Shown one piece after another: positions 11,660 through 30,630 of a stretch of DNA of 38,557 nt. The first letter of the stretch is position 1. Each line of letters opens with the position of its first letter. The position numbers were made by a program, and so were the translations under genes. The notes beneath the pieces were generated by a model. It worked only from the letters and a program-made list of their open reading frames with translations. It was not told the origin of the DNA and did no database searches. Source of the stretch: Opitutaceae bacterium (GTDB lineage Bacteria; Verrucomicrobiota; Verrucomicrobiia; Opitutales; Opitutaceae); assembly GCA_014376585.1 (NCBI GenBank), contig JACMRG010000274.1:1-38557 (forward strand). The letters are read 5' to 3'.

Positions 11660-12607
11660 ATGCCCTGGACCCGACGCCACCTCCTCACCATCGAGGAACT
11701 TTCCCTCGCCGAGATCGGCCAGATTCACGTCACCGCCACCGCGTTTAAAAAAATCCTCGGCCGCAGCGTTAAAAAAGTCCCCGCTCTCCGCGGCAAGACG
11801 ATCGTCAATCTCTTCCTTGAGCCCAGCACGCGCACGCGCATGGCCTTCGACATGGCCGCCAAGCGCCTCAGCGCCGATGTCATTTCCCTCGACGGCGCCA
11901 GCAGCAGCACGACGAAGGGCGAAACCCTCCGCGACACCGCTGAAAACATCCGCGCGCTCGGCGCCGACATGATCATCCTGCGCCACGCCGCCGCCGGCTC
12001 GCCGCTCTATCTCTCCAAGTTTCTCGACATCCCCGTGATCAACGCCGGCGACGGCGCGCACGAGCATCCCACGCAGGGCCTTCTTGATACGTTCACGATG
12101 CTTGAGCACCTCCGCTCCCTGAAAGGCCGCAAAGTCGTCATCCTCGGCGACATTCTTTTCAGCCGCGTCGCCCGCTCCAACATCCACGCACCCACCAAGC
12201 TCGGCGCCGCCGTCACGCTCGTCGGCCCTTCGACGCTCGTGCCGCACTGGTTCACCGATCTCGGCGTCAAAGTTTCCCACGATCTCCGCAGCGCCCTCGC
12301 CGACGCCGAGGTCGTCATGCTTCTCCGCATCCAGCACGAGCGTCAGTCGAGCGGCCATTTCCCCTCGCTCGGCGAATACACCAGCATGTTCGGCCTCAAC
12401 AAAACCCGCGCCGGCTGGCTCAATCCCAAGGCCATCATCATGCACCCCGGCCCGATCAACCGCGGCGTCGAAATCGACAGCGAGCTCGCCGACGGCCCCC
12501 GCAGCGTGATCTTGGAACAAGTCACCAACGGCATCGCCGTCCGCATGGCCGTCCTCTTCCTCTGCGCCGGCGGCCAACCCGAGTCCGTAATGCCGACAGA
12601 GTGGTGA
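11660..12607 (+). CDS. pyrB: Aspartate carbamoyltransferase catalytic subunit
   Basis: 315 residues, normal length for the family. It carries the carbamoyl-phosphate loop FLEPSTRTRMAF, the SLDGASSSTTKGETLRDTAENI segment that supplies a catalytic Lys, ILRHAAAGSP, the HEHPTQGLLDTFTM motif and the C-terminal HPGPINRGVEI. It catalyses carbamoyl phosphate plus aspartate to carbamoyl aspartate, the committed step of pyrimidine synthesis, in the cytoplasm. No pyrI regulatory subunit is seen, which fits the class that works with a dihydroorotase or alone. pyrR lies just upstream and pyrC downstream, separated from pyrB by the inserted GxxExxY cassette. Confidence 0.97.
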   Translation: MPWTRRHLLTIEELSLAEIGQIHVTATAFKKILGRSVKKVPALRGKTIVNLFLEPSTRTRMAFDMAAKRLSADVISLDGASSSTTKGETLRDTAENIRALGADMIILRHAAAGSPLYLSKFLDIPVINAGDGAHEHPTQGLLDTFTMLEHLRSLKGRKVVILGDILFSRVARSNIHAPTKLGAAVTLVGPSTLVPHWFTDLGVKVSHDLRSALADAEVVMLLRIQHERQSSGHFPSLGEYTSMFGLNKTRAGWLNPKAIIMHPGPINRGVEIDSELADGPRSVILEQVTNGIAVRMAVLFLCAGGQPESVMPTEW

Positions 12608-12617
12608 CCGGTTTTTA

Positions 12618-13078
12618 GCCACAAAAAACACGGGAAGTCACAAAAAAGGGAGCCGCATGAAATTCGATCATATCAATCAACTCTGCGACATCGTCCGAGA
12701 AACCAGTTTCGCGCTCCACTGGTATCATCGAAACGGACATATGGAGAAGGTTTATGAGAACGGTCTCCGCCACCGTCTGCGCAAAATCGGCTTGGACGTG
12801 AGCCGGCAACACCCGCCTCAAGTCTACGACGAAGATGGCACGCTCATCGGTGAATTCTTCGCCGATCCCTACTTCGAGAACCAACTCATTGTTGAACTGA
12901 AAGCCGCTCGCGCCGTCGTCCACGAACACATCGCCCAACTCCTCGGCTACCTAAAATTAGGCCGCGTCGAAACGGGCATGCTGATCAATTTCGGTTCACC
13001 CATCTTGCACGCGAAAAAATATTTCATGACCGATCCAAATCCAGTCTGATTTTTGCGACTTCTCGTGCTTTTTGTGGC
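12618..13078 (+). mobile_element. Putative GxxExxY cassette flanked by 29-bp inverted repeats, inside the pyr cluster
   Basis: The left arm (12618-12646, starting GCCACAAAAAACACGGGAAG) and the right arm (13050-13078) are inverted copies matching at 26 of 29 positions. The gene fills nearly all the space between: its start lies 10 bp after the left arm and its stop abuts the right arm. Thus the unit is gene plus arms and nothing else, placed between pyrB and pyrC. The arms belong to the same style of repeat as the CGTGTGTTTCGTGG family elsewhere in the window. No target duplication was identified. Confidence 0.6.
12657..13049 (+). CDS. GxxExxY protein (PDDEXK_3-like)
   Basis: 130 residues from the ATG at 12657, with a weak GGGAG stretch upstream. 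The signature heptad GHMEKVY (GxxExxY) is at about 27-33, followed by ENGLRHRL. A PD-(D/E)xK-like core follows: a conserved Asp in EFFADPYFENQ and the ELKA motif in LIVELKAARAV. The C-terminal QLLGYLKLGRVETGMLINFG is also typical. The family is placed among PD-(D/E)xK nuclease-like proteins, but I know of no established function; members are often multicopy in Verrucomicrobia and Planctomycetes (from memory). Key residues look intact, so it may be active. It has no evident link to pyrimidine synthesis, and the inverted repeats that frame it point to insertion. Confidence 0.9.
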   Translation: MKFDHINQLCDIVRETSFALHWYHRNGHMEKVYENGLRHRLRKIGLDVSRQHPPQVYDEDGTLIGEFFADPYFENQLIVELKAARAVVHEHIAQLLGYLKLGRVETGMLINFGSPILHAKKYFMTDPNPV

Positions 13079-13103: not shown

Positions 13104-14405
13104 ATGCCTTCCCTTCACATCCAAAACGCCCGCGTCATCGATCCCGCCGCCAAGCGCGACGCCCTCGGCGACGTCTTCGTCGTTGACGGCAAATTCGCCC
13201 CGTCGCTCTCCGCCGCCGAGAAAAAGCGCGCGAAAAAAATTGACGCCACCGGCCTCGTCGCCTGCCCCGGCCTGATCGATATCCACGTCCACTTCCGCGA
13301 GCCCGGCCAGACGCACAAGGAGACCATCGCCACCGGTTCCCGCGCCGCCGCCGCCGGTGGTTTCACGACCGTCGTGTGCATGCCCAACACCTCCCCCGTC
13401 GCCGACAACGCCGGCACCATCCAGTTCATCAACGACGCCATCCGCCGCGACGCCGTCGTCCGCGTCCTTCCCACCGGCTGCATCACCGTCGGCATGAAGG
13501 GCGAGGCCCTCGCGCCCATCGGCTCGCTCAAACGCGCCGGCGTCATCGCCATCACCGACGACGGCGATTGCATCCAGTCCAACGAACTCATGCGCCGCGC
13601 CTGCGAATACGCGAAGATGTTCGACCTCCCGATCATGGACCACTGCCAGGATCATTCCATGACTGTCGGCGCCGTCATGAACGAGGGCGTCATGTCCACC
13701 CGCCTCGGCCTCCGCGGTTGGCCCAACGCCGCCGAAGATCTCATCGTCGCGCGCAATGCCATCCTCTCCGAGCACACCGGCGCGCACATCCACCTCCAGC
13801 ACATTTCCTCGCGCCACTCGGTGGACATCATCCGCCGCGCGAAAGCCCGCGGCGTGAAAATCACCGCCGAGGCCACGCCGCACCATATCGCCCTCACCGA
13901 CGAATCGCTCGCGACCTACGATACCAATTTCAAGATGAACCCGCCGCTGCGCACCGAGGAGGACCGCCGCGCCATCATCGCCGGCCTGCGCGACGGCACC
14001 ATCGACATCATCGCGACCGATCATGCGCCGCACACCGACTACGAGAAGGACAAGGAATTCGACTTCGCACCCAACGGCATCCTGGGCCTTGAAACCGCCC
14101 TCGCCGTCACCCTCGGCGTCCTCGTGCGCCAGCAGAAATTCAAACTCCCCTTCGTCATCGACCTCATGACGCGCCGCCCCGCCGAACTTCTCGGCCTTCC
14201 CGGCGGCACGCTCGCGGAGGGCGCTCCCGCCGATCTCTGCCTTTTCAATCCCGATGAAGAATGGCTCTACGAGGCCAAATCCGGCTTCAGCAAATCCACC
14301 AACTCCCCGTGGAACGGCGCCGCCCTCATCGGCCGCGTCAAAAACACCCTCGTCGCCGGCAAGATCGTCTTCGCCGACGGCAAAATCCTCCGAGAGCGCG
14401 TTTAA
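13104..14405 (+). CDS. pyrC: Dihydroorotase
   Basis: 433 residues from the ATG at 13104; the frame is open to 13053, but that part is repeat DNA. It is a class I dihydroorotase of the amidohydrolase superfamily: metal ligands in DIHVHFREPG, then MDHCQD, LQHISS and the catalytic Asp in ATDHAPH, and substrate contacts in the FKMNPPLR segment. All key residues are present, so it is likely catalytic, unlike the inactive PyrC' paralogues. It closes carbamoyl aspartate to dihydroorotate. The last four codons and the stop lie within an inverted-repeat element (14393-14518) that may also terminate transcription. Confidence 0.97.
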   Translation: MPSLHIQNARVIDPAAKRDALGDVFVVDGKFAPSLSAAEKKRAKKIDATGLVACPGLIDIHVHFREPGQTHKETIATGSRAAAAGGFTTVVCMPNTSPVADNAGTIQFINDAIRRDAVVRVLPTGCITVGMKGEALAPIGSLKRAGVIAITDDGDCIQSNELMRRACEYAKMFDLPIMDHCQDHSMTVGAVMNEGVMSTRLGLRGWPNAAEDLIVARNAILSEHTGAHIHLQHISSRHSVDIIRRAKARGVKITAEATPHHIALTDESLATYDTNFKMNPPLRTEEDRRAIIAGLRDGTIDIIATDHAPHTDYEKDKEFDFAPNGILGLETALAVTLGVLVRQQKFKLPFVIDLMTRRPAELLGLPGGTLAEGAPADLCLFNPDEEWLYEAKSGFSKSTNSPWNGAALIGRVKNTLVAGKIVFADGKILRERV

Positions 14406-27907: not shown

Positions 27908-27922
27908 ATCCTCAACGCCTCA

Positions 27923-28004
27923 CCACAGAGGCACAGCGACACGAAGTCGGAATTCCGATTCCCTCTCCTTTGATTCCGATCTCCGTGTCGCTGTGCCTCT
28001 GTGG
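27923..28004. repeat. Perfect 21-bp inverted repeat between cysS and thrS
   Basis: The left arm 27923-27943 (CCACAGAGGCACAGCGACACG) and the right arm 27984-28004 are exact inverted copies; inside them CGGAAT (27948-27953) and ATTCCG (27973-27978) extend the symmetry. The loop also contains the palindrome TCGGAATTCCGA. It starts 15 bp after the cysS stop and ends 20 bp before the thrS start. This motif style (CTGTGCCTCTGTGG) is a common intergenic repeat in many genomes, from memory. It could form a long hairpin and may affect readthrough into thrS. Confidence 0.85.
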
Positions 28005-28024
28005 TTAAAACTCATTTCCCGCCC

Positions 28025-29980: not shown

Positions 29981-30135
29981 AGACGCTTCATTTTTCCTGT
30001 TGCGGAACGCCTGAACATTTCTCGTGCGCGACGCACGAAAGTCATGACGGCTTCCGCTGCTCGAAACACATCTTTGGTTTGTCCAGCATCTGGCTCACTC
30101 CCCTCTGTGCTCCCTGTGCATCCTCTGTGATCTCC

Positions 30136-30630
30136 GTGTCCCTCTCCGAATCCCCAGCCTGGAAGCCCGAGCTCGACGCCATCATCGGCGCGCGCCACGG
30201 CGGGCAAATAGATCACGTCCTCGGCCTCCTCCAAAAACTCGACGGGCGCTTCCCCCGCGTCCCCGAGATCGCCTACCAACTCGCGTGGACCAGCGACATC
30301 CTCGGCCGCGAGGCCGAGGCCGTCCCACATTACGACCGTGCCATCGCCCTCGGCCTCGCGCCCAATGAACTCGCCGGCGCCCTCCTCGGCCTCGGCTCCA
30401 CCCTCCGCCACACCGGCCAACTCGCCCGCTCCGCCGAGGTCCTCCGCTCCGGCCGCGCCCAATTCCCGGACAATCGCGAGTTTGATGTTTTTCTCGCGCT
30501 CACCCTGCACGCTCTCGGCCAATCCGCCGACGCGATGAAACTTCTTCTCCTCACCCTCGCCGACACCAGCGAGGACCCGGCCATTATCGCCTACCAGCGC
30601 GCGATCCGCTATCAGGCCAACCGGCTCTAA
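30136..30630 (+). CDS. Tetratricopeptide (TPR_5-type) protein
   Basis: 164 residues from a GTG at 30136; the open frame reaches back to 30079 through repeat DNA. The sequence consists of helical TPR-like units: AIIGARHGGQIDHVLGLLQKL, PEIAYQLAWTSDILGREAEAV, ELAGALLGLGSTLRHTGQLARS and DVFLALTLHALGQSADAM. This matches the small TPR_5 proteins of about 120-160 residues. They are cytoplasmic and thought to bind other proteins; the function is unknown. The start codon sits inside a CTGTG...CCGTG-type repeat tract (30097-30140). The stop codon is directly followed by an inverted-repeat element. Confidence 0.78.
   Translation: MSLSESPAWKPELDAIIGARHGGQIDHVLGLLQKLDGRFPRVPEIAYQLAWTSDILGREAEAVPHYDRAIALGLAPNELAGALLGLGSTLRHTGQLARSAEVLRSGRAQFPDNREFDVFLALTLHALGQSADAMKLLLLTLADTSEDPAIIAYQRAIRYQANRL

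Follow-up and report, generated by a model that had tools for sequence, protein, structure and literature searches.

A GxxExxY gene between word-specific inverted arms points to an undescribed class of self-spreading chromosomal element

The REP-associated tyrosine transposases, or RAYTs, and their REPINs (Bertels and Rainey 2011, PMC3116915) would be the nearest working model for the element that we describe here. As in REPIN/RAYT, a chromosomal gene lies beside copies of a short repeat, gene-less inverted pairs capable of forming hairpins are numerous, and the repeat type is tied to a particular gene copy of the same genome. However, the enzyme here is PD-(D/E)xK-like, while RAYTs belong to the HUH/Y1 type; the arms here are tandem words about 10 bp apart, while a REP is a single palindrome with a GTAG or CGTC tag (PMC3733652); and having Y1_Tnp does not account for the arms of our genomes. 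By analogy, the cassette would work like REPIN/RAYT without being one.

The ends of the intervening sequences (IVSs) of 23S rRNA pair as a stem. One with an S23 open reading frame, that of Coxiella, is selfish and measures about 430 nt, with one small ORF (PMC4990558). Our cassette is likewise a small element of the selfish type with one small ORF, and the S23 protein family is flanked by arms here too. In contrast to the IVS, the cassette protein has another fold, the cassette is not in rRNA, its arms are built of words repeated about every 10 bp, and gene-less copies are dispersed. The Rpn, or YhgA-like, recombination-promoting nucleases are of the PD-(D/E)xK type that they share with our protein and are linked to DNA mobility (PMC5350276); Rpn proteins are not known to lie between word-specific repeat arms, and no sequence link between GxxExxY and these proteins was found in this analysis. 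Insertion sequences with their MITE derivatives share with the cassette a gene within terminal inverted repeats and gene-less derivatives. Unlike insertion sequences, the cassette has no recognised transposase and no target duplication (90 loci), and its arm words change along with the protein from one copy to the next. Judged against the open-access literature, in which two papers name GxxExxY without dealing with its function and nothing relevant was found on the arm words or on GxxExxY with repeats, the system is undescribed.

The window, by which we mean the whole 38,557-nucleotide stretch of Opitutaceae DNA analysed here, contains a 461-bp cassette at 12618-13078 that consists of a 29-bp arm, a GxxExxY gene and the inverted arm. 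The host gene on its 5' side is pyrB (aspartate carbamoyltransferase; 11660-12607, + strand), and the one on its 3' side is pyrC (dihydroorotase, named by sequence and context; 13104-14405, + strand). The two arms, at 12618-12646 and 13050-13078, are 29 nt each, 26/29 complementary and 403 nt apart. The left arm (+ strand) reads GCCACAAAAAACACGGGAAGTCACAAAAA and is made of the units CACAAAAA / CACGGGAAG / CACAAAAA at spacings of 9 and 10 bp, and the right arm (- strand) is its inverted copy, with spacings of 9 and 10 as well. This composition of each arm from three units of about 10 bp had been missed in the earlier, sequence-only reading, whose description of inverted arms tightly bounding the gene was otherwise accurate. 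The gene itself (12657-13049, + strand) encodes 130 aa of the PD-(D/E)xK nuclease superfamily; its ATG lies 10 bp from the left arm and its stop codon 0 bp from the right arm. Outside the cassette, 10 bp separate the pyrB stop codon from the left arm, and 25 bp separate the right arm from the likely pyrC ATG (13104), picked by alignment with relatives that have an empty site. The upstream and downstream arms align with a score of 23, compared with 8-12 for shifted control windows of the same locus.

Elsewhere in the window the same repeat style recurs, as had been remarked from the sequence. A well-preserved, gene-less inverted arm pair (ACCACAGAGGCACAGCGACACGAAG...; 27922-28005), which the earlier reading does not name, lies between two ORFs and is a non-autonomous copy of the style of the cassette arms. 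In addition, there are a decayed, partnerless lone arm (CTCTGTGCTCCCTGTGCATCCTCTGTGATCTCCGTG; 30103-30140, - strand) and a cluster of decayed single arms (CTTTCGTGTGTTTCGTGG; TTTCGTGTGTTTCGTTTTTTTCGTGGTT; CTTCCGCGTGATTCGCGGGC; 897-1160, - strand).

PyrB is 93-98% identical in 12 of 13 genus genomes, the match in G005 being partial, and in six genomes of the genus pyrB and pyrC are separated by a spacer of 36-40 bp with no cassette; this count leaves out G001, G004 and G008, which have other sequence 3' of pyrB. Since the filled site has 35 bp beyond its arms (10 bp on the pyrB side, 25 bp on the pyrC side), the cassette accounts for the entire extra length, and the proposal that gene and arms form the whole insert is confirmed. 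An orthologous gene, 65% identical, occupies the pyr slot of G006 between diverged arms. Their spacing is 10,10 in both arms compared with 9,10 in the window's genome (G000), so the two arms changed together. With two occupied genomes, this slot fits both insertion in two lineages and loss elsewhere. Homing of the cassette into an existing solo arm was rejected, as the empty pyr spacers hold no arm.

Arms of this kind accompany GxxExxY genes in general. We started from all 7 GxxExxY genes of the window's genome and those of 6 other genomes of the genus, and widened the set to the bacterial family and the phylum, reaching 186 unique loci; the 220 bp upstream of each gene were aligned to the reverse complement of the 220 bp downstream. 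The first 86 loci had a median arm score of 22, compared with a median of 10 and a 99% point of 16 in 493 shifted control windows. Inverted arms above the 99% control flank the gene in 155 of 185 loci (72 of 86 in the earlier set), and thus the arms are present beside other members of the family. Under a strict test, which takes six 7-mers at a spacing of 9-11, three in each arm, 52% of the 186 loci score, compared with 0.7% of 564 control windows. A Bacteroides record and a viral contig each have a GxxExxY gene with matching arms; only the upstream arm accompanies the copy from Sphingomonas, and no arms were found beside a Fusobacteria copy. At one locus from Hydrogenedentes (L012), the gene has a complete inverted arm pair with CGCAAAG-type words both upstream and downstream, so that it seems to be enclosed by two gene-less pairs.

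The usual arm consists of three 7-bp words at a spacing of 9-11 bp, and GxxExxY arms are autocorrelated at lag 9-10. Taken from loci in which all three words of each arm are clear, the word is, with few exceptions, C-R-C-D-R-A-D, that is, C-[A/G]-C-[A/G/T]-[G/A]-A-[G/T/A]; the commonest words are CACAGAG, CACGGAG, CACGAAG and CACGAAA. Word and spacing match across both arms of a locus and vary among the loci of one genome. The spacing pair is the same upstream and downstream in 80 of 97 loci, whereas shuffling gave 30 on average and 46 at most. In six multi-copy genomes all loci of the same genome were compared, and 32 of 36 upstream arms had their own downstream arm as the single best partner; the match is thus not a product of genome-wide homogenisation.

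The word also follows the protein. Protein identity and word identity are correlated across 90 loci (Mantel r 0.45; maximum 0.17 in 2,000 permutations), and the share of pairs with the same word rises with protein identity, from about 1% of those at 30-40% to 74% of those at 70-90%. Nearest neighbours agree at word position 7 in 98% of cases, compared with 37% when shuffled; all 48 loci with a G at this position have His at alignment column 12 of the protein, and all 14 with an A have Tyr there. The whole word has changed at least 37 times along the protein tree, and common descent contributes a part of the association. In a phylogeny-aware test of one column, 5.1 pairs pointed one way and 0 the other (p about 0.06); a specificity residue sought by such independent contrasts thus pointed the right way, with too few independent changes to be retained. 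Taken as a whole, these sequence patterns argue strongly that the GxxExxY protein recognises the arm words.

The protein scores 89.7 bits with the TIGR04256 (GxxExxY) profile (cut-off 35) and 80.4 bits with PDDEXK_3 of Pfam (cut-off 22), and no Y1_Tnp match was found in the window's gene. D70, E80 and K82 are invariant within its subfamily (A1), which supports a predicted catalytic D...ExK core of the PD-(D/E)xK superfamily. No solved structure was found by sequence search. The AF2 model (pLDDT 82) has the Cas4-like chain SSO0001 as its top match (Z 8.7), with restriction-like folds and Hjc resolvases at Z 5-7. This comparison, whose best Z is 8.7, backs membership of the superfamily, as first suggested from the sequence, and not any particular relative. 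Among described anti-phage defence families, PADLOC returned a weak, partial match only (PDC-M36A, E 2e-4, 46 residues). GxxExxY is carried by 85% of the sampled genomes in this bacterial family and by 57% across the phylum, and reaches 13 copies per genome.

Arms are far from confined to the flanks of these genes. A 400-kb part of one genome, G081, has 12 exact triple words spaced 9-11, all arm-style, and none spaced 12-14. Many of its arms form gene-less inverted pairs, some of them nested or interleaved, and the three gene-less pairs checked for folding gave hairpins with z of -3.6 to -5.6. At G081:C1:3045574-3045740 and 2923720-2923895, gene-less pairs of two words lie interleaved or nested in each other, the interleaved order being CACTAAT+, CACGGAT+, CACTAAT-, CACGGAT-. 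The solo-pair words CACTAAT, CACGGAT, CGCGGAT and CACAGAG match resident GxxExxY genes, and the spacings largely agree; CACTAAT is borne by 1 of 85 canonical-word genes, namely that of G081. For a CACAAAA-type solo pair at 3050720, no resident gene with that word could be assigned.

Across 150 genomes of the family, the arm pattern, limited to CAC-type words, has 6,573 matches, compared with about 15 for the reversed pattern. The median is 38 arms in the 128 gene-bearing genomes and 0 in the 22 without the gene (Fisher p 1e-14; Spearman 0.53). No arms were counted in six genomes that have the gene, which may reflect the restriction of the pattern to CAC-type words, and four genomes without the gene still hold 5-20 arms, explicable by past gene loss. 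Y1_Tnp genes occur in 135 of the 150 genomes. Genomes with GxxExxY and without Y1_Tnp have many arms (G040 105, G029 75 and G153 18), while most genomes with Y1_Tnp and without GxxExxY have 0 or 1.

When the flanks of eight loci were searched across the genus, slots that were empty or otherwise occupied turned up; empty sites are found at six slots overall, the pyr slot and five others with empty relatives, all in comparisons between species and many in draft genomes. The gene is thus not fixed at its locations. One slot holds a GxxExxY cassette in G002, a gene-less CACAGAG-style pair in the window's genome and, in G001, 104 bp of inserted sequence with a gene-less CGCGAAT pair, while five genomes have a clear empty spacer. 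G001 yielded a single GxxExxY gene, at another slot, and CGCGAAT is its word too. The gatA-gatB slot holds the gene in G004 and the window's genome and a gene-less CGCGAAA-type pair in G005, and in three more of the genomes examined the stop and start codons overlap. This junction carries GxxExxY cassettes in many genera of the family (L025, L016, L176 and others), some with four-word arms. Two genomes carry GxxExxY at a third slot; in G004 that slot is taken by an S23 four-helix-bundle gene between its own arms. Other tenants were also seen: a gene-less inverted pair of units of about 6 bp (GTTCTC/TTTCTC) at the L029 slot (L311, G008:C30), possibly a third arm style, and, at the L023 slot (L320, G005:C512), apparently two unrelated small ORFs that may resemble a toxin-antitoxin pair.

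No target duplication, which the sequence-only reading had suggested looking for along with an empty site, was found in 90 loci: direct repeats of 3-8 bp are not enriched at the flanks. This agrees better with a route through single strands or recombination than with cut-and-paste. Between-species comparisons yielded no transposition intermediate and no strain-level new insertion. By neighbour direction called from the longest open frame, 126 of 149 GxxExxY genes lie between co-directional neighbours and point the same way, and 1 is antisense to both; this bias may reflect selection for uninterrupted operons or insertion tied to the direction of transcription or replication. Among viral contigs, a search with the window's subfamily confirmed 0 relatives and one with a broader alignment gave 1 locus, and 8 of 72,556 plasmid records matched. 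Carriage by phages or plasmids was rejected on these counts, and with such scarce matches the element looks chromosomal.

An unrelated family shares the layout. S23/TIGR02436 four-helix-bundle genes also lie between inverted arms (L144-L173, L319:292-657), in which 7-bp words such as GTAGCGA, GTTGAAA and GGAGTCA stand in tandem. The arms score above control at 22 of 30 S23 loci, with an autocorrelation of 0.67 at lag 7, a period of exactly 7. Because these proteins lack a nuclease fold and have the same architecture, the nuclease may not be the mobilising step. The S23 result thus enlarges the finding, yet weakens the claim that the nuclease moves the arms.

On balance, we favour, with reasonable though not high confidence, the reading that a mobile chromosomal cassette, of which the insert would be one copy, has a nuclease that reads and spreads word-specific arms. 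Each arm would usually offer a tandem of three 7-bp words, spaced by about one turn of the DNA helix, and the GxxExxY protein would recognise its own word and spacing in both arms. The arm pairs would then be cut or processed, probably as hairpins in single-stranded or cruciform DNA, and this would propagate the cassette of the protein itself as well as, in trans, gene-less pairs that carry the same word. Landing sites would mostly be short gaps between co-directional genes, entered without target duplication. The original suggestion was that the protein recognises or moves repeats of this family. Its first half is well served by the protein-word association and by the dependence of the arms on the gene, whereas active movement is the best reading, though neither a target duplication nor an intermediate was seen. 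We accordingly grade mobilisation of the arms by the protein below recognition, and direct binding, cutting and the transposition chemistry are predictions.

It is tempting to consider that the arms themselves are what is mobile, with some other enzyme moving them, for instance a Y1 transposase of the RAYT type or host repair, and that GxxExxY is a passenger captured by some arm pairs. The nuclease-free S23 cassettes, the slot that two genomes fill with a GxxExxY cassette and a third with an S23 one, and the large excess of gene-less over gene copies would all fit. However, the sequence of a passenger would not predict the arm word, and Y1_Tnp, present in 135 of 150 genomes, does not track the arms, on which ground a RAYT was rejected as mobiliser; we regard this explanation as unlikely. 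Less credible still is that the arms are regulatory or RNA hairpins, or the protein's own operator sites, spread by ordinary duplication, with the protein serving defence, DNA repair or the like. Hairpin folding (z -3.6 to -5.6) and the 126 of 149 co-directional genes, which imply that transcription through the cassette matters, speak for such a role, but dozens to hundreds of arms per genome away from any GxxExxY gene, gene-less pairs nested or interleaved with one another, and pairs present in one genome and absent from the same slot of relatives do not suit it, and the Padloc match is only weak and partial.

We give very little weight to an ancestral occupation of the pyr site by a vertical, non-mobile gene, with loss of the cassette in relatives. 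The orthologous cassette in the same slot of G006 and the filling of gatA-gatB in many genera would agree with it, but the pyr slot is empty in most genus genomes with a readable junction, the spacing of G000 and G006 differs in both arms together (9,10 and 10,10), and loss alone is insufficient where the same slots elsewhere hold gene-less pairs of different words or an S23 cassette. Short repeats are common by chance, but the scores of 86 loci against 493 control windows, the strict six-unit test and the 6,573 arm-pattern matches, where the reversed pattern has about 15, make a chance inverted repeat or composition artefact barely conceivable; it was rejected by the shifted-window, shuffled, reversed-pattern and cross-locus controls.

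The mobile cassette that we favour points to an undescribed class of self-spreading element. We could speculate, with slightly more doubt than conviction, that the GxxExxY cassettes, with words 9-11 bp apart, and the S23 cassettes, with words 7 bp apart, are two branches of one undescribed class of chromosomal element. In such a class a small protein would read an array of short words, word and protein would co-evolve as a key does with its lock, and gene-less arms, up to hundreds in a genome, would spread in trans. If the proposed reading is true, the widespread GxxExxY family, which has no described role, would gain a function, the dispersed ACCACGGAT/CACAGAG-style repeats would gain an owner, and dozens of protein-word pairs would offer a natural protein-DNA word code that can be tested.
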